Program-made: the position numbers and the translations under genes
Assembly: GCF_014645015.1 (NCBI RefSeq)
Contig: NZ_BMLC01000001.1
Span: forward strand, 372,001-436,000
Direction: 5' to 3'
Source of the DNA: Salinibacterium xinjiangense
Lineage (GTDB): Bacteria > Actinomycetota > Actinomycetes > Actinomycetales > Microbacteriaceae
DNA length: 64,000 nt
Part shown: in pieces, positions 57,937-64,000 of the stretch
Position numbering within the stretch: position 1 is the first letter of the stretch
Layout: every line of letters begins with the position of its first letter
The notes under the pieces: model-generated
Database searches by the model: none
What the model was told of the DNA's origin: nothing
The model's input: only the letters and a program-made list of their open reading frames with translations

Positions 57937-58506
57937 ATGACCGAAGCCCCACCCGCACGCGTGCCGCGGCATCCTGATGTCGATGGTCGCATATTCGACG
58001 CTGCGCTCGACATCCTCCGGAGCCGCGGGCCACTCGCCGTCAGCATCGAATCGGTGTCTGCGGCGTCAGGAGTCGCGAAGACCACCATCTACCGTCGCTT
58101 CGAAAACCGCGAGTCGCTGTTGACCGCGGCGATCTCAACTGCGACGACCTCGGTCAGCTTCCCGGAAGGGCTCACCGCGAAGGATTCTTTGAGGTGGGTG
58201 CTGCGTCACGCCAGCGACACCATCGAGAACGTGGTCGGCCGTGGCACGGTGGCCGCGATCATCATGAATGAGGATCCGCAGTTCACGCAACTGCTGCTGG
58301 GGATGATCCGCGGCTCCACGAAAGCCTTGCGCAACGACCTGCGCGACCGCGCGATCACCGGCGAGATCAACCGCGACGTCGATATCGAACTCGCGATGAG
58401 CATCCTTCTCGGCGTGGTCGTGGCGGAACTGATCCGCGGCCGCGCGACCGACGAAGCTTGGGTCGACTCCGTGCTCGCCCTGCTCTGGCCGGCCTTCGCA
58501 GTCTGA
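57937..58506 (+). CDS. TetR family regulator, candidate controller of the ether-lipid cluster
   Basis: 189 residues. GAGGTG lies eight bases before the ATG. The HTH (VSIESVSAASGVAKTTIYRRFENRESLL) is standard TetR; the C-terminal part resembles TetR_C domains of lipid-responsive regulators only loosely. It lies at the end of the AGPS operon, convergent to it. The 19-bp palindrome at 61760 is a plausible operator, but the link is by position only. Confidence 0.88.
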   Translation: MTEAPPARVPRHPDVDGRIFDAALDILRSRGPLAVSIESVSAASGVAKTTIYRRFENRESLLTAAISTATTSVSFPEGLTAKDSLRWVLRHASDTIENVVGRGTVAAIIMNEDPQFTQLLLGMIRGSTKALRNDLRDRAITGEINRDVDIELAMSILLGVVVAELIRGRATDEAWVDSVLALLWPAFAV

Positions 58507-58547
58507 GCCGCCGTTGGCCCGCCCGGGGGCGGACCAACCATCCGAAT

Positions 58548-60236
58548 TCACTTCGGGAGAATCTTCCCCGGGTTGAAGTTCTGGGCGGGGTCTGCGCTCT
58601 CGAACAGCCCGGTCATGATTTTCACGCCCTCTTCCGAGATGTCCTGGGTGAGCCACGGCGAGTGTTCCAGCCCCACCCCGTGGTGGTGGGAGATCGTCGC
58701 GTGGTTGTCGACGAAGGCCTGCTGGATGGCGTTCTTGACGAGGTTGTACTCAGCGATCGGGTCGTCGCCGAAGGTGAAGGCGAATGTGAAGTACAGGCAG
58801 GCTCCCGAGTGGTAGGAGTGCGACATGTGGCTCATGATCCAGCCGTCGTTGCCGAGCTGCTCGTACGCGCCGCGGGCCGCCGCATAGACGGCCTCGTGCA
58901 CGCCCACGAGCTTCGACCACGGCGCAGCGGTCTCAGACACGTCGCCCGCCGCACCCATGTCGAGCAGGAAGTCGCGCAGGTAAGGGGTGTCGAACTTCTT
59001 CTGGTCGTACAGGATGCCCGGTCCCGAGCCCACGCCCATTCCACCGTGCTTCTTCACGATGTCATCGACCAGCGATTTCTGGTGCTTCGCGTGCGAGACG
59101 CTGCCCTCGAACCCGATGAACGAGAGGCAGATATCGTCGAGGTTCCAGCCCTTGGCCTTCATAATGCCCGGAAGAGCAGACTCGGCCATGAACTTCGACA
59201 CGCCCTTGCGGTTTTTCGACGTGGCCAGCGAGAACGAGGTCTCCCGCGAATCCGAGATTCGGGTAATGGATGGCGTGGCGTCAGATTCGCTGATGGCCTG
59301 CATGGCGGCAATTCCCGACTTCCAGTTCGGGAAGAAGTAGGCGTAGACGTCTCGTTTTTCGGGAATGCGATGCACCTGCACTGTGACCTCGGTGATCACT
59401 CCGAGCTTTCCCTCACTGCCGAGGATCATTTCGCGCACGCTCGGTCCGCTCGAGGTCGACGGCAGTGGTCGCAGCACGAGCACGCCACCGGGGCGCACCA
59501 CGCGCATGCCGCGGGCGATGTTTGCGATGTCACCGTATTTGTCCGACTGCATTCCGGATGACCGGGTCGCGACCCATCCGCCCACCGTCGAGTGGGTGAA
59601 GCTGTCGGGGAAGTGACCGATGGTCCAGCCCTGTTTGTTCAACTGCTCCTCGAGATCAGGGCCCTGGGATCCGGCCTGGATGCGAGCGAGACCCGAGTCG
59701 GTGTCGATGTCGATGACCGCGCGCAACCGACCGAGGTCGAGAGACACGATCGTGCGGGCCTCGCCAGGGATGGGCTCGAGGCTGCCGGCGATGTTGCTTC
59801 CGCCGCCGAACGGGATGATGACGGCATTGGCGGCGACCGCGGCATCCACGATCTGCTGGACCTCGGCCTCGTCTGCCGGATAGATCACGACATCGGGGCT
59901 GCGAAGGATGGTGTTGCTGCGCACGCGGATCAGGTCGCGGATGCTTTTGCCGTAGGTGTGCACGACCCGAGCCATGTCGTCTGTGGTGACGTTCTCTGCG
60001 CCGACGATCGACGCCAGTTCGGCCGTGAATTCCTCGGTGGCATTGCTTAATGGCACGTTCAGGTCATCGAACGACGGCTCCCCTGTGCGAACGGCGGTGC
60101 CCAGGTCGAGTCCGACCGCAAATTTCACGAACGGTGCGAATCCCGGCTTGTCTTCATGGTGGAACCCCACGCCGTCAACGCCCCAGCCCCACCACTTCAT
60201 GTGGTGCACGGCGTTGCGGTCTATTGCGTTGGTCAT
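58548..60236 (-). CDS. Alkyl-dihydroxyacetone-phosphate synthase (AGPS) homologue
   Basis: 562 residues. The N-terminal MKWWGWG corresponds to MKWNGWG of eukaryotic AGPS. The FAD domain has IIPFGGGSNIAGSLEPI, GHFPDSFTHSTVGGWVATRS and ILGSEGKLGVITEVTV. The C-terminal half keeps SYHSGACLYF, with the Tyr implicated in catalysis, and the active-site triple His in SHHHGVG (517-519). AGPS swaps the acyl chain of acyl-DHAP for a fatty alcohol, making the ether bond. The motifs argue against lactate or glycolate oxidase, a common default label. It is third in an operon after the SDR and acyltransferase; its ATG overlaps the acyltransferase stop by four bases. Confidence 0.88.
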   Translation of the reverse strand: MTNAIDRNAVHHMKWWGWGVDGVGFHHEDKPGFAPFVKFAVGLDLGTAVRTGEPSFDDLNVPLSNATEEFTAELASIVGAENVTTDDMARVVHTYGKSIRDLIRVRSNTILRSPDVVIYPADEAEVQQIVDAAVAANAVIIPFGGGSNIAGSLEPIPGEARTIVSLDLGRLRAVIDIDTDSGLARIQAGSQGPDLEEQLNKQGWTIGHFPDSFTHSTVGGWVATRSSGMQSDKYGDIANIARGMRVVRPGGVLVLRPLPSTSSGPSVREMILGSEGKLGVITEVTVQVHRIPEKRDVYAYFFPNWKSGIAAMQAISESDATPSITRISDSRETSFSLATSKNRKGVSKFMAESALPGIMKAKGWNLDDICLSFIGFEGSVSHAKHQKSLVDDIVKKHGGMGVGSGPGILYDQKKFDTPYLRDFLLDMGAAGDVSETAAPWSKLVGVHEAVYAAARGAYEQLGNDGWIMSHMSHSYHSGACLYFTFAFTFGDDPIAEYNLVKNAIQQAFVDNHATISHHHGVGLEHSPWLTQDISEEGVKIMTGLFESADPAQNFNPGKILPK

Positions 60237-60928
60237 GTCGTTCCTTTCCGGGCGCGCACCGGCATCGGTTGCACAGTTTCATACAGACGGCGAACCTCGC
60301 CTGAAAGTCGTCGGGAGAATTGCTCTGCAGTCTCTCCCTCATCGGGCCTCATCGGCGCTCCGAACACGATGGTGACTGGATGCCGGCCACGGAGGGGCCA
60401 GTTGACGCCCCGGGGCATAGCCTCACTCGCACCGACAAGCGCGATGGGCAGACACGGGGTACCCGTGGCGATGGCAAGTGCTGCTGCACCGGGCTTGAAC
60501 GGGCCCATCTCGCCGTACTTCGACCTGCCGCCTTCAGGAAAGACAAGCAGTGGCACCTTCCGCTCGAGCAGGGCGCGCGATGACCCCGAACGTTTCCCCT
60601 CGGAGTTGCGTTCGATGGCGAACGCGTTGAAAAACAGTGTCGTGAGCCACTTGCGCCACTGCACATCGAAAAAGTAGTCGGCAGCGGCTCCCGCCGCAAG
60701 GTAGCGCGAGAGTCGTCTCGGCAGTCCGCCGATGACGAGTGGGGCATCCAGATGGCTTGAATGATTCGCGACGGCAATATACGGAACGTCCAGGTTTTTG
60801 ATCGCGTCCTCACCGCGGATCGTGACCCGCACGAGCCGCCAGACGACGGGTTTCAGGATTCCGCGCTGGGCGAGGAAGCGCACCCCGGCAACCCCAGAAG
60901 ATGTAAAGCGATCCATCGACGGACTCAC
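60233..60928 (-). CDS. PlsC-type glycerolipid acyltransferase
   Basis: 231 residues. Motif I NHSSHLD (55-61; catalytic His 56, Asp 61), motif III FPEGGRS (130-136) and a late LPIALVG are present. The family acylates lysophosphatidate or dihydroxyacetone phosphate. In this operon it could make acyl-DHAP for the AGPS homologue or acylate the alkyl-G3P product. Its ATG overlaps the SDR stop by four bases. Confidence 0.88.
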   Translation of the reverse strand: MSPSMDRFTSSGVAGVRFLAQRGILKPVVWRLVRVTIRGEDAIKNLDVPYIAVANHSSHLDAPLVIGGLPRRLSRYLAAGAAADYFFDVQWRKWLTTLFFNAFAIERNSEGKRSGSSRALLERKVPLLVFPEGGRSKYGEMGPFKPGAAALAIATGTPCLPIALVGASEAMPRGVNWPLRGRHPVTIVFGAPMRPDEGETAEQFSRRLSGEVRRLYETVQPMPVRARKGTT

Positions 60929-61746
60929 TGGTTTTCGGCCTTCATGTCACTATGTTCGGAGCCCTGGGCCGGTCGGGCTGTGTCAGTTCTGCTCGAGGAT
61001 ATTTTCGAGGAAACCCAGTGGATTACGGGTCGCGGCAAGTGTCGGGCAAACCACCCGAGCACACGGTAGCGAAGAGTCGGTATGGAGATGACCCTGCCGC
61101 GCTCTGCGTCCCGCAAAGCGATGCGCACGACCGTTTCCGGTTCGGTCCACAGAAAGGCGGGGAGCGAGCTTCGACGTACCCCGGATCGTTCGTGCCACTC
61201 GGTGCGAACCCAGCCCGGGAGCACGGCAGTGACGGTGACGCCGGTGCCGCGGAGTTCGACTGACAGCCCCTCGCTGAAGGCCGTCACCCATGCCTTTATG
61301 GCGCCATACGAACCGGTGGCCAGGTATGTCTGCAGGCTCGAGATGTTGATGATCCTGCCGCCGCGGCCCTTCATGGTTCGACCGGCGGCACCGCCGAGCA
61401 CCAGAACAGCCCGACACATCACCTCGAAAGCATGTTCGTGCTGCGAGGTGCCTGTCGAGGTCAGCGGTGCGCCCAGCCCGAAGCCCGCGTTGTTGACCAG
61501 CACCTCCAGGGGCCGCGCCGCATCCTCGATCCGAGCCACGACCCTGGCGACGTCCGCTCGGTCAGCCAGGTCGGCGGTGATCGTCTCAACGTGTATGCCT
61601 GACGCGGCATACAGTTCTGCCGCCATCGCTTCCAATCGCGCTTCATTGCGGGCGACCAGCACTAAATCGAAGCCTTTGGCGGCGAATTGTCGGGCGAATG
61701 CGGCTCCGATGCCGGATGTGCCGCCCGTAATGAGAGCCGTTGCCAT
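60925..61746 (-). CDS. Short-chain dehydrogenase, probable acyl/alkyl-DHAP reductase
   Basis: 273 residues. NAD(P) motif TGGTSGIG (7-14), NNAG, catalytic Ser in NISSLQTYLA and YGAIK (YxxxK) are all intact. The GGWFARHLPRPV-like tail (RVLGWFARHLPRPVIHWVSS) gives a hydrophobic C-terminus that may touch the membrane, as in AYR1/DHRS7B reductases. In the cluster the expected substrate is 1-acyl- or 1-alkyl-DHAP. It is the first gene of the operon, with a TAATGT box seven bases before the ATG. Confidence 0.85.
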   Translation of the reverse strand: MATALITGGTSGIGAAFARQFAAKGFDLVLVARNEARLEAMAAELYAASGIHVETITADLADRADVARVVARIEDAARPLEVLVNNAGFGLGAPLTSTGTSQHEHAFEVMCRAVLVLGGAAGRTMKGRGGRIINISSLQTYLATGSYGAIKAWVTAFSEGLSVELRGTGVTVTAVLPGWVRTEWHERSGVRRSSLPAFLWTEPETVVRIALRDAERGRVISIPTLRYRVLGWFARHLPRPVIHWVSSKISSSRTDTARPAQGSEHSDMKAENQ

Positions 61747-61753
61747 GCCCCAT

Positions 61754-61778
61754 ACATTACGCTACGGGCCCCGTAGCG
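61754..61778. promoter_or_regulatory. 19-bp palindromic operator and -10 box between divergent lipid genes
   Basis: CGCTACGGG-C-CCCGTAGCG (61760-61778) is a perfect inverted repeat with a one-base centre, the size and shape of a TetR operator. On the minus strand TAATGT (61759-61754) abuts it and serves the SDR operon. A TACACT box (61787-61792) on the other side may serve the plus-strand genes. Confidence 0.7.
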
Positions 61779-61829
61779 ACTGGCTAGTACACTTGACGGG
61801 ATTCGTCCCGCGCTTTGGAGGTAGTTCGC

Positions 61830-62648
61830 ATGCCGGAACATAAAGAGGCCCCCGCGGATAGGGAGGTCGACACCATGCGGTGCCCTGCACCCGACTTCGA
61901 CGTCCGCGAATACGCACGCGACGCTGCAGCCAGTCACCGCGACGAATTAGAGCTCGGAGCATACAAGACCTCTCCGCTGGGCGCCGACACTCTCCGTCTG
62001 CTCAGGTACCTACAGATCATCGAACGCGCCACGATGACCCACCTGCGCGGCGTGCTCGTCACGGCCACTCATAAAGACGCACGGATCACGGCGTTCCTCA
62101 CCACCTGGGCTTTCGAGAAGTATTGGATCGCTGACGCCTTCGAACAGATCGGTCTTGCACACCAGCCGGAAGGGACGGATGTCGACCGCGCTCCCTTCAT
62201 CACCCCGGTGGAGCGCACCATCCGCGAAGCCATCTATGCGAACATCGTCGGCCTTCCGATGATCGCGGTGCACATGACGCTCGGTACCATCGACACGTGG
62301 CTGAGCCAGGCGGCATATCGGCGGCTCATCGAAATCGAGCCGCATCCGCAACTCACCAGGACGATCGAGAAATTCCTCGCGCTGAAAGACCGACAGCTGG
62401 AGTTCTTCGAGCTCCAGTCCCGGTACCGCCTGACGGAGTCGGCGCAGGCTCGAAAGATCACGAAGCGCCGCCTCGTGAAGACTCCATGGCCGATCGGCGC
62501 GAAGGCCGAGCCGCCCCACGAGACAGAATTCCTTTTCCAGCGGCTCTTCGGATCAGCTAGAGAGATCATCAGCGAGCTCGACGCCCGCATCGATTCCCTT
62601 CCCGGCCAGTCCGGGCTCAACCTCATTCGAAAGGCCGCCAGGCTGTGA
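61830..62648 (+). CDS. Unrecognised helical protein next to the fatty acyl-CoA reductase
   Basis: 272 residues from ATG 61830 with GGAGG eight bases upstream. Mostly alpha-helical and acidic/basic, with conserved-looking blocks THLRGVLVTATHKDARITAF, WAFEKYWIADAFEQIGL and EKFLALKDRQLEFFELQSRY. No signal peptide; at most one hydrophobic helix (ANIVGLPMIAVHMTLG). The Glu/His spacing could fit a ferritin-like di-iron fold but no strict ExxH motif is seen. Its stop overlaps the start of the reductase gene by three bases, so the two work together. Function unknown. Confidence 0.7.
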   Translation: MPEHKEAPADREVDTMRCPAPDFDVREYARDAAASHRDELELGAYKTSPLGADTLRLLRYLQIIERATMTHLRGVLVTATHKDARITAFLTTWAFEKYWIADAFEQIGLAHQPEGTDVDRAPFITPVERTIREAIYANIVGLPMIAVHMTLGTIDTWLSQAAYRRLIEIEPHPQLTRTIEKFLALKDRQLEFFELQSRYRLTESAQARKITKRRLVKTPWPIGAKAEPPHETEFLFQRLFGSAREIISELDARIDSLPGQSGLNLIRKAARL

Positions 62649-64000
62649 CTGACGCTTCAAAGACGCCCGTACGCAAGACACCCCTCGCGGCCAAAGTTCC
62701 AGCGAAGGCGTCAACGCCACGTAAGCCGCGCGCCACCCCTGCAGCCGCAGTGAAGAACACCATTCTCACCAACGAGCACGTGTTCATCACCGGAGGCACG
62801 GGATTCGTGGGGCAGGCGCTGCTCGAACGACTGCTGTCGTCGCATCCTGACACCCGCATGACGTTGCTGGTTCGTGGCAAGGGCAGCCTGACCGGCCAGG
62901 CAAGGCTTGCCGGTCTGCTGCGCAAGCCGGTCTTCAAGAACTGGATCGAGGCAATCGGCGAAGAGGAAGCTCATCGCCAGTTCGCCAGCCGTGTGACGGC
63001 CCACGAGGGCAGCCTCGGCAATGTCGGAACCCTCCCTGACGACATCGACGTGGTAATCCACAGCGCATCGACCGTGTCATTCGACCCGCCGATCGACGAA
63101 GCGTTCGACACCAACGTCGGCGGGGCGCACGGCGTGTACGGTGCCCTGCTGGCGAGCAAGAGCACCCCGCACGTCGTGCACATCTCCACGGCGTACGTCG
63201 GTGGAATCCGCAAGGGCATCGCGCCCGAAGCATCCCTCACCCATGAGGTCGACTGGCGCGCAGAGTATGAGGCCGCGAAGTCGGCCAGGATCCGAGTGGA
63301 GCTCGAGTCACGCCAGCCCGAAGCCCTTCGCGCCCAGCTCAGCGCGGCGAAGGCCCGCCACGGCAAGACCGGCCCACAGGCCGTTGCAGGATTCGCTGAG
63401 ACCGCAAGAAACGCCTGGGTGCGCGAACGTCTCGTGGATTACGGCCGCACCCGCGCCGAGAGCCTGGGCTGGACCGACGTCTACACGCTGACCAAGGCTT
63501 TCGCCGAGCGGGCCGCGGAAGAGCTGTGGGCCCAGTCAGGTCACCGCCTGTCGATCGTGCGCCCGTCCATCATCGAGAGCTCGCTGCACCACCCCTTCCC
63601 GGGCTGGATCGACGGCTACAAGGTCGCAGATCCGCTGATCATCGCCTACGGCCGCGGCCAGCTTCCGGATTTCCCGGGCCTGCCAGACTCGATCCTCGAC
63701 GTCATCCCCGTCGACTTCGTGGTCAACGCTGCGCTGGCTGTCGCTGCTCGTGATGCCCAGCCGAACGAGCCGAAGTACTACCACGTGAGCTCGGGAGCCA
63801 GCAACCCGCTGCCGTTCCACCGCATGTACGAGAACGTGAACAGGTACTTCACCGAAAATCCGCTGCCCGATGGCACGGGCCACATCACCGTGCCACTGTG
63901 GCGATTCCCCGGCGGTGTTCGCGTCGAGAACGCTCTCGCACGTCGTGAGAAGCAGGCGGCGACGGCGGAGTGGCTCATCGAGCACCTGCCGACGACTCCT
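62645..64000 (+). CDS. Fatty acyl-CoA/ACP reductase (alcohol-forming), 3' end beyond window
   Basis: Partial, 452 codons visible. A Lys/Arg/Pro/Ala-rich tail (1-37) precedes an extended SDR domain with GGTGFVG (50-56), YTLTK (YxxxK) and the signature RPSIIESSLHHPFPGWIDGY, which matches the RPSIV...EPFPGWxDN block of eukaryotic and Marinobacter alcohol-forming reductases. PVDFVVNAALAVAA follows. It would make the fatty alcohol that AGPS uses. A GTG start overlaps the upstream stop. Confidence 0.88.
   Translation, partial: MTDASKTPVRKTPLAAKVPAKASTPRKPRATPAAAVKNTILTNEHVFITGGTGFVGQALLERLLSSHPDTRMTLLVRGKGSLTGQARLAGLLRKPVFKNWIEAIGEEEAHRQFASRVTAHEGSLGNVGTLPDDIDVVIHSASTVSFDPPIDEAFDTNVGGAHGVYGALLASKSTPHVVHISTAYVGGIRKGIAPEASLTHEVDWRAEYEAAKSARIRVELESRQPEALRAQLSAAKARHGKTGPQAVAGFAETARNAWVRERLVDYGRTRAESLGWTDVYTLTKAFAERAAEELWAQSGHRLSIVRPSIIESSLHHPFPGWIDGYKVADPLIIAYGRGQLPDFPGLPDSILDVIPVDFVVNAALAVAARDAQPNEPKYYHVSSGASNPLPFHRMYENVNRYFTENPLPDGTGHITVPLWRFPGGVRVENALARREKQAATAEWLIEHLPTTP

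Follow-up and report, generated by a model that had tools for sequence, protein, structure and literature searches.

The animal ether-lipid pathway comprises GNPAT, AGPS, acylglycerone-phosphate reductase, FAR1, and TMEM189/PEDS1. Passages of one review (PMC9131029) describe myxobacteria as a striking exception among aerobic bacteria in plasmalogen production and, for the aerobe Myxococcus xanthus, place an AGPS homologue beside FAR-like and acyltransferase domains (MXAN_1676-1674). Among aerobic actinobacteria, dimethylacetals have been reported for Subtercola and a small number of others. Here we analyzed a gene cluster at positions 57937-64000 of a 64,000-nt stretch of Salinibacterium xinjiangense DNA (NZ_BMLC01000001.1:372,001-436,000; hereafter the window), and we consider it probable that this cluster specifies an oxygen-dependent route to plasmalogens, with a soluble diiron protein taking the place of the membrane desaturase CarF/TMEM189. 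Among the matches listed for open-licence titles and abstract openings, none described a cluster of this kind or a plasmalogen desaturase that is soluble.

Gene content and conservation of the cluster

The features of the locus are as follows, with Dii1 denoting the unknown protein of a first-pass annotation of this DNA.

57937..58506, plus strand: TetR-family regulator (PF00440/TetR_N, 39.4 bits; PF16859, 35.7 bits)
58548..60236, minus strand: AGPS homologue (putative alkyl-DHAP synthase), 562 aa; nearest solved structures are alkyl-DHAP synthases
60233..60928, minus strand: PlsC-type acyltransferase, candidate DHAP acyltransferase (PF01553, 67.7 bits)
60925..61746, minus strand: SDR reductase, candidate alkyl-DHAP reductase (adh_short, 141.1 bits)
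61760..61778, no strand: candidate TetR operator, formed by the perfect inverted repeat CGCTACGGG-C-CCCGTAGCG in the region separating the divergent operons
61830..62648, plus strand: Dii1, start at ATG 61830 or TTG 61815
62645..64000, plus strand: FAR, truncated at the window end and continuing to window-equivalent 65077 (NAD_binding_4, 160.1 bits)
65096-65896 (window-equivalent, outside the window; L009:9096-9896), plus strand: Dii2, after FAR

An ORF check of 57937..64000 found the reading frames as the first-pass annotation had described them, in two divergent coupled operons, with 4-base overlaps between neighboring minus-strand genes and likewise between the Dii1 and FAR genes. That annotation had also called the cluster complete-looking; the AGPS, PlsC-type, SDR, Dii1, and FAR genes are indeed present, but the window truncates the plus-strand operon. 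Beyond the window, a same-strand gene begins 18 bases past the FAR end and encodes Dii2, and it is because of this additional gene that we reinterpret the cluster. In a named-locus sample from other genomes, consisting of the best 80 of 240 loci from a scan of genome contigs, the six-gene set was complete in 66 of 80 loci, which argues that the arrangement is not due to chance, and gene order was identical in 65 of these 66.

The TetR gene, which is convergent with that for AGPS, was found near the cluster in 30 of the 80 loci (best 80 of 240). Of 68 loci tested, 15 had the repeat motif with two or fewer mismatches in 15 bases, and a TetR gene was detected at 14 of these 15. In 16 other TetR-bearing loci, the motif was not found at this threshold.

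The predicted ether-lipid enzymes

The AGPS homologue matched the solved alkyl-DHAP synthases 2uuu and 4bby with E-values of 4.6e-118 and 6.2e-83, whereas its match to the best glycolate oxidase was far weaker (E 2.1e-19). Its Pfam domains were FAD_binding_4 and FAD-oxidase_C (115.3 and 118.5 bits). Residues Y482, H517-519, and R326, which we take to be the equivalents of guinea-pig AGPS Tyr578, His615-617, and Arg419 by counting along the alignment to a solved alkyl-DHAP synthase, showed no substitution in 65 aligned rows, with one row gapped at the Tyr/His positions. A place among the 2-hydroxyacid oxidases with loss of the catalytic His and Tyr had been named as the outcome that would count against the AGPS assignment; these residues are retained, and the family, as judged by search scores, is that of AGPS. 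On search scores and kept residues, we rejected a mere glycolate oxidase. From its sequence, the protein is predicted to use acyl-DHAP and a fatty alcohol to form alkyl-DHAP.

The HX4D motif of the PlsC-type acyltransferase (solved relative 5kym, E 5.2e-13) and the YxxxK motif of the SDR reductase were each retained in 69 of 69 aligned rows; the substrates of these enzymes would be DHAP and alkyl-DHAP, respectively. In the source genome, the full FAR is 810 aa long, with NAD_binding_4, Sterile, and C-terminal HAD domains, and it matched the solved fatty acyl-CoA reductase 7eoz (E 6e-48). By Pfam and locus comparison, the animal-type DHAP ether-lipid set of acyltransferase, AGPS, reductase, and FAR is present together. 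The ether-lipid assignment made in the first-pass annotation stands because AGPS-specific residues are kept and the gene set is conserved across loci, and we regard this part of the pathway as well supported.

In the pathway that we propose, the PlsC-type protein would convert DHAP to acyl-DHAP, FAR would reduce a branched fatty acyl group to the alcohol, AGPS would exchange the acyl chain for this alcohol to give alkyl-DHAP, and the SDR reductase would produce alkyl-glycerol-3-phosphate, which would then enter normal phospholipid synthesis. The first-pass annotation had further suggested that the cluster could be a source of plasmalogens; it correctly recognized genes for alkyl ethers, but the genes that it named would by themselves yield saturated alkyl ethers. 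Formation of the vinyl ether needs one more enzyme, for which Dii2 is the best candidate. With Dii1 as its partner, Dii2 would use O2 to desaturate the alkyl chain between C1' and C2', removing two hydrogens, and would therefore fill the role of CarF/TMEM189. What the analysis shows is the identity of the genes, the kept AGPS residues, the stable gene order, the co-occurrence of genes, the diiron ligands, the predicted fold, and the agreement with a strain for which dimethylacetals are reported. The activities of all of these enzymes, the target molecule of Dii2, and a Dii1-Dii2 complex are inferred, the desaturase role of Dii2 from gene context and reported dimethylacetals.

The diiron-type pair and the origin of dimethylacetals

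Dii1 and Dii2 are paralogues (31% identity, E 3e-42). The Dii2 diiron ligands E45, E77, H80, E141, E171, and H174 were complete in 80 of 80 loci (best 80 of 240), and the positions of E77, H80, and E171 were substituted in all 73 aligned copies of Dii1, which is a ligand-poor paralogue of Dii2. Dii1 matched no family in a Pfam scan. Structural models had pLDDT values of 88.8 for Dii1 and 84.5 for Dii2, and the all-helical Dii2 model has the predicted fold of soluble acyl-ACP desaturases and R2-like proteins. In a Foldseek search with this model, soluble ACP desaturases ranked at the top and R2-like oxidases were also among the nearest folds, with a probability of 1.00 yet a best E-value of 2.8e-3, so that none fell below 1e-3. 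A PDB profile search returned a designed helix bundle first (E 1.1e-07), with DesA2 as the best natural chain (E 0.0016), and the score against the soluble acyl-ACP desaturase family PF03405 was 19.3 bits, under the curated cut-off of 22.7. With ligands in the order E, ExxH, E, ExxH and a helix bundle in the model, Dii2 fits the ferritin-like diiron oxidase superfamily.

Dimethylacetals in Microbacteriaceae, which the first-pass annotation had mentioned, are indeed in print: a table in PMC5945732 lists them for four Subtercola species at 21 to 29% of peak area, with a-15:1 at trace levels at most. For Subtercola vilae DB165 (L078), the same table gives ~22% dimethylacetals and no unsaturated acyl chains above trace. 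This strain carries the whole cluster, and AGPS was found in 12 of 12 Subtercola genomes searched. Another Subtercola table lists no dimethylacetals and 18:1 at up to 76.7%, and the main text of a Herbiconiux paper names no dimethylacetal. In Kineococcus rubinsiae, a MIDI "C14:0 2-OH" peak proved by GC-MS to be anteiso-C15:0 dimethylacetal, according to an excerpt of PMC7472656. The C14:0 2-OH label occurs in several Microbacteriaceae tables, and together with this mislabelled peak it suggests that plasmalogens may be under-reported.

Markers of the known vinyl-ether routes were sought in the genomes. PF09989, the marker of PlsA-type reductases, was not found in the source genome, in agreement with the earlier claim that the cluster is distinct from the anaerobic PlsA/PlsR route; it was missing from 38 of 39 genomes searched, with Ruaniaceae KH17 as the single carrier, and was detected in 4 of 14 control genomes. 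With the marker in only 1 of 39 genomes, we rejected the PlsA/PlsR route as the vinyl-ether source. The CarF/TMEM189 family PF10520 was not matched in the source genome or in any of a set of 42 genomes, in a search in which 14 control genomes were also all negative. Subtercola vilae DB165 had no PlsA marker match and, in the CarF/PEDS1 search without a positive control, no match there either.

AGPS and Dii2 occurred jointly in 84 of 299 Microbacteriaceae genomes and one without the other in 9 (Fisher p 1e-63, a value that ignores relatedness and so is not readable as a probability). In our reading, the Dii pair is spread widely through aerobic actinobacteria, and at least one Streptomyces megaplasmid also has it; Dii1 was missing in all four Jiangella genomes, which counts against the proposed pathway.

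The cluster might make saturated alkyl ethers only, with dimethylacetals arising from an unlinked gene and Dii1/Dii2 serving otherwise, for example to desaturate acyl chains, to hydroxylate, or to protect against oxygen. This reading, which we judge unlikely, would accommodate the abundant 18:1 of one Subtercola study and the kinship of the Dii2 fold with acyl-ACP desaturases and R2-like oxidases; the other Subtercola table, with its high dimethylacetals and trace a-15:1 at most, speaks against it, as does the failure to find markers of either known vinyl-ether route in three Subtercola genomes (CarF search without a positive control). Against the plasmalogen pathway, the Dii pair was present but AGPS missing in 7 of the 299 Microbacteriaceae genomes, one contig break set aside, and likewise in 4 of a set of 12 genomes; Agromyces terreus and Leifsonia flava are examples of such carriers. 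The AGPS-less Dii rows fall in one clade, however, and so may reflect a single departure rather than the rule. The wider Dii family also occurs without ether genes: near Dii2-like proteins outside the Microbacteriaceae, a scripted search for ether-gene neighbors returned none except one weak SDR match, and a distant AGPS or better was present in only 5 of 19 such genomes.

It is improbable that the dimethylacetals derive from something other than plasmalogens, such as methanolysis of free FAR aldehydes or aldehydes released if Dii2 hydroxylated and broke the ether at C1'. FAR enzymes can proceed via an aldehyde, C1' hydroxylation by a diiron oxygenase is conceivable, and one peak in PMC12823222 was assigned as anteiso-C15:0 aldehyde or dimethylacetal; however, 21 to 29% of peak area is more than would be expected of a free aldehyde, given its reactivity, and it would seem self-defeating for an operon that makes ethers to encode an enzyme that breaks them. 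Very unlikely, in our estimation, is a hydrocarbon pathway in which Dii2 acts on the FAR aldehyde as a ferritin-like deformylating oxygenase. Although 6d9f, a chain with aldehyde-deformylating activity, ranked 25 in the Foldseek list, a Pfam scan up to E 10 gave Dii2 no match to the aldehyde-deformylase family, for which reason we set this reading aside; it would also leave AGPS unexplained, although 93 genomes have AGPS or Dii2 and 84 of them have both.

We favor the plasmalogen pathway and lean, with somewhat more reserve, toward a third vinyl-ether route, in which Dii2 with Dii1 would be a novel plasmalogen desaturase, soluble and ferritin-like, with no relation to either CarF/TMEM189 or PlsA/PlsR. 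The cluster would then provide a genetic basis for the aerobic-actinobacterial dimethylacetal reports, with single genes to remove. If correct, vinyl ethers evolved through a third chemistry, and the enzyme, being soluble, may lend itself to study more readily than the membrane-bound desaturase that makes human plasmalogens.

Comparison with described systems

The cluster resembles the animal pathway in its AGPS family and key residues and in its acyltransferase, SDR, and FAR, which here adjoin AGPS. Unlike in animals, all genes lie in one bacterial cluster, with two soluble ferritin-like proteins and no PF10520 match (search without a positive control). Parts of PMC9702350 indicate that the PlsA/PlsR route leads to the same kind of final lipid as the proposed pathway and that pls of Enterococcus faecalis is preceded by a TetR-type gene, as the cluster here also has a TetR gene; PlsA/PlsR, however, reduces an existing ester. 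The M. xanthus elb operon includes a HAD-type protein, recalling the HAD domain of the FAR studied here, but the desaturase of M. xanthus is the membrane protein CarF, and the sections of PMC9131029 on this system describe no ferritin-like pair. According to the same review, a carF mutant can be scored by the color of its colonies. Soluble acyl-ACP desaturases and R2-like oxidases share with Dii2 the E, ExxH, E, ExxH pattern and the fold. Unlike the acyl-ACP desaturases, Dii2 lies under the PF03405 cut-off and is paired with a ligand-poor paralogue in an ether-lipid operon.

Gene content of the divergent cluster

The cluster comprises two divergent operons, as the first-pass annotation had proposed; the neighboring SDR, PlsC-type acyltransferase, and AGPS genes overlap by 4 bases. 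The open reading frames listed in that annotation were all found. The window (positions 372001-436000 of its contig) cuts the plus operon at its end; the cluster runs on, and the remainder of FAR and a further diiron-type gene, Dii2, were found in the adjoining stretch of the source genome, L009, whose coordinates plus 56000 give window-equivalent positions.

Genes of the cluster (window or window-equivalent coordinates)
57937-58506, plus strand: TetR gene, facing the end of the AGPS gene
58548-60236, minus strand: AGPS, minus operon
60233-60928, minus strand: PlsC-type acyltransferase, minus operon
60925-61746, minus strand: SDR, minus operon
61830 (ATG) or 61815 (TTG) to 62648, plus strand: Dii1, plus operon
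62645-65077 (window-equivalent; L009:6645-9077), plus strand: FAR, 810 aa, HAD domain at the C terminus, plus operon
65096-65896 (window-equivalent, past the window end), plus strand: Dii2, 266 aa, plus operon

The HAD domain fused to FAR (residue 561) has DLEGT as its first motif, the Asp of which is kept in 65 of 65 aligned rows. On the same strand and 3' of Dii2, a 200-aa open reading frame (L009:9972-10574) resembles, by eye, an ECF sigma factor. The inter-operon gap contains an inverted repeat, CGCTACGGG-C-CCCGTAGCG, at 61760-61778. Of the 68 loci tested, 15 have this motif at the equivalent position, and a TetR gene was detected in 14 of these; the motif was not found in 16 other TetR-bearing loci. 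It is a candidate operator for both operons.

The AGPS homology originally proposed is upheld by matches to solved enzymes and by invariant residues. The nearest solved relatives are the alkyl-DHAP synthases 2uuu (E 4.6e-118) and 4bby (E 6.2e-83), from Dictyostelium and guinea pig, respectively; the next match is glycolate oxidase (E 2.1e-19). Counted along the alignment, Y482, H517-519, and R326 align with Y578, H615-617, and R419 of 4bby, key residues of that enzyme, and were never replaced in 65 aligned rows, one of which is gapped at the Tyr and His positions. We consider it very probable that this is an ether-lipid cluster.

The Dii1/Dii2 pair and its association with ether-lipid genes

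Dii1, formerly listed as an unknown protein, is present as described and is now seen to be one half of a paralog pair with Dii2 (31% identity, E 3e-42). Dii2 scored barely above the cut-off for Pfam Rubrerythrin (23.2 versus 22.8 bits), and slightly under that for FA_desaturase_2 (19.3 versus 22.7 bits); its highest NCBIfam score was 21.2, for a cut-off of 192.5. Its ligand positions E45, E77, H80, E141, E171, and H174 are invariant in 80 loci (the best 80 of 240 relatives), whereas in 73 of 73 aligned Dii1 copies (of 74; L047, with a misparsed start, was left out) E45 is retained, E77 and E171 are each replaced by Lys/Arg, and H80 is replaced by Ile/Val/Met/Leu. With its ligands invariant, Dii2 appears capable of binding two irons, unlike Dii1, in which three are replaced. 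In Foldseek searches of the PDB, the AlphaFold model of Dii2 (mean pLDDT 84.5) best matched soluble ACP desaturases and R2-like oxidases (E 2.8e-3, probability 1.00, TM 0.61) and that of Dii1 (mean pLDDT 88.8) best matched R2-like oxidases (E 0.023), with no match of either model attaining E 1e-3.

A search of named genomes with 24 aligned Dii2 sequences gave 240 relatives; the analysis used the best 80 of these. By fixed score limits, and with some loci truncated by contig ends, genes near Dii2 in these 80 were AGPS (66), PlsC (68), SDR (68), Dii1 (74), FAR (69), and TetR (30); all six core genes were present in 66, with identical divergent order in 65 and a rearrangement in L074. When 10 genomes with no AGPS near Dii2 were searched at E 1e-60 (L116 left out), six had AGPS elsewhere in the genome, and no match was found in the others (four genomes: Agromyces terreus, A. 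salentinus, Leifsonia sp. Leaf264, and L. flava). Naasia and four Jiangella genomes carry an AGPS-PlsC-SDR-FAR block separate from the Dii genes. Thus, the ether and Dii modules can be unlinked yet co-retained within a genome.

Dii2 of L048 and L050 (labeled Microbacterium) and L063 (Corynebacterium-like) clusters with Salinibacterium and Herbiconiux, and these labels may be wrong. In Subtercola (L078:7402-9836), FAR and Dii2 are separated by a 566-aa open reading frame and another PlsC-like acyltransferase gene. All six genes also lie on a 2.35-Mb Streptomyces sp. NBC_01450 plasmid typed as mobilizable (NZ_CP109481.1, 1062765-1087544; L144), which points to horizontal spread; the AGPS there is 71% identical.

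Among 299 Microbacteriaceae genomes sampled in a single draw, Dii2 matched in 92 and AGPS in 91, comprising 85 of cluster type (at least 63% identity; the G135 copy is split, with an internal stop) and six with a distant AGPS-like protein instead (33-38% identity; G017, G063, G064, G142, G215, and G271). Both genes occurred in 84 genomes, Dii2 alone in eight, AGPS alone in one (85% complete), and neither in 206; one Dii2-only genome, G107, has a contig break within PlsC, leaving seven. Three of six Salinibacterium genomes drawn had both genes and three had neither. In the Dii2 tree, 11 AGPS-less rows (some genomes twice) and L116 form a 12-row clade (99/99, midpoint root).

Dii2 may alternatively be a general diiron protein recruited to the ether cluster, or have some other function, in view of its relatives outside the family and of Jiangella, where Dii1 was not found in four of four genomes. 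A draw of 396 genomes from the phylum gave a Dii2 match in 22, of which 19 lie outside the family. The full set of six ligands is present in 17 of these 19 proteins; the other two sequences start within the protein. In the stretches fetched around these 19 genes, no ether genes were found, bar one weak SDR match, and five of the 19 genomes encode an AGPS-like protein (32-37% identity). On balance, we lean modestly toward Dii2 as the vinyl-ether enzyme. The out-of-family proteins (L174-L192), single-copy and ligand-intact in other actinobacterial families, constitute an uncharacterised diiron family.

Reported dimethylacetals and known plasmalogen routes

Dimethylacetals, taken as a sign of plasmalogens, had been mentioned for some Microbacteriaceae in the first-pass annotation, and the table in PMC5945732 confirms them for Subtercola: summed, they make up 21 to 29% of peak area in four species, and trace a-15:1 in S. 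boreus is the sole unsaturated chain listed. All six genes are present in S. vilae DB165 (L078), the strain used both for the lipid analysis and for sequencing, and likewise in S. lobariae (L092) and two non-type strains of S. boreus (L100 and L102). AGPS was found in 12 of 12 Subtercola genomes searched, a set assigned to the genus through matching AGPS positions in G090 and the S. vilae genome G309. Agreia, with a small amount of i-15:0 dimethylacetal according to the same paper, has all six genes in three loci (L114, L117, and L120). PMC12823222 reports anteiso-C15:0 aldehyde/dimethylacetal in Frigoribacterium adelgis D8 and F. faeni and its absence from two congeners. Nine Herbiconiux-labeled loci have all six genes, but no dimethylacetal is mentioned in the main text of PMC10011130, a Herbiconiux paper. 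Plasmalogens are a likely product of the cluster.

Some dimethylacetals may carry another name. According to PMC7472656, the MIDI label "C14:0 2-OH" in Kineococcus rubinsiae proved to be anteiso-C15:0 dimethylacetal. MIDI values tabulated for 2-OH C14:0 in PMC9287328 (S. boreus 10.4%, S. frigoramans 9.9%, S. vilae 15.6%, S. lobariae 3.9%, S. endophyticus none) match a-15:0 dimethylacetal in the PMC5945732 table (S. boreus 11.0%, S. frigoramans 10.3%, S. vilae 3.2%, S. lobariae 9.7%) in two of four species. S. lobariae is the sole species for which the latter lists 14:0 2-OH (10.3%), and the former conflicts with it in listing 18:1 at up to 76.7%. Glaciihabitans tibetensis, for which PMC7033078 gives C14:0 2-OH at 4.2%, has all six genes (L086). 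The label may mask anteiso-C15:0 dimethylacetal in many actinobacterial descriptions, and plasmalogens may therefore be under-reported. If so, Frondihabitans, described in PMC5945732 as lacking dimethylacetals and having C14:0 2-OH as a major component, merits a second look at that label.

We also searched for markers of known plasmalogen routes. PF10520, the CarF/TMEM189 (PEDS1) desaturase family, matched in 0 of 42 genomes, with its controls giving no match either, and PF09989, taken as a marker of the anaerobic PlsA/PlsR route, matched in one of 39 genomes and four of 14 controls. Neither was found in the S. vilae (G309), S. lobariae (G721), or S. boreus (G724) genomes, the PF10520 controls all being silent. 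Ruaniaceae bacterium KH17 (L093 and L200) carries both the cluster and a PlsA-type PF09989 protein (open frame of 1511 aa) in one genome and may have the aerobic plus the anaerobic route.
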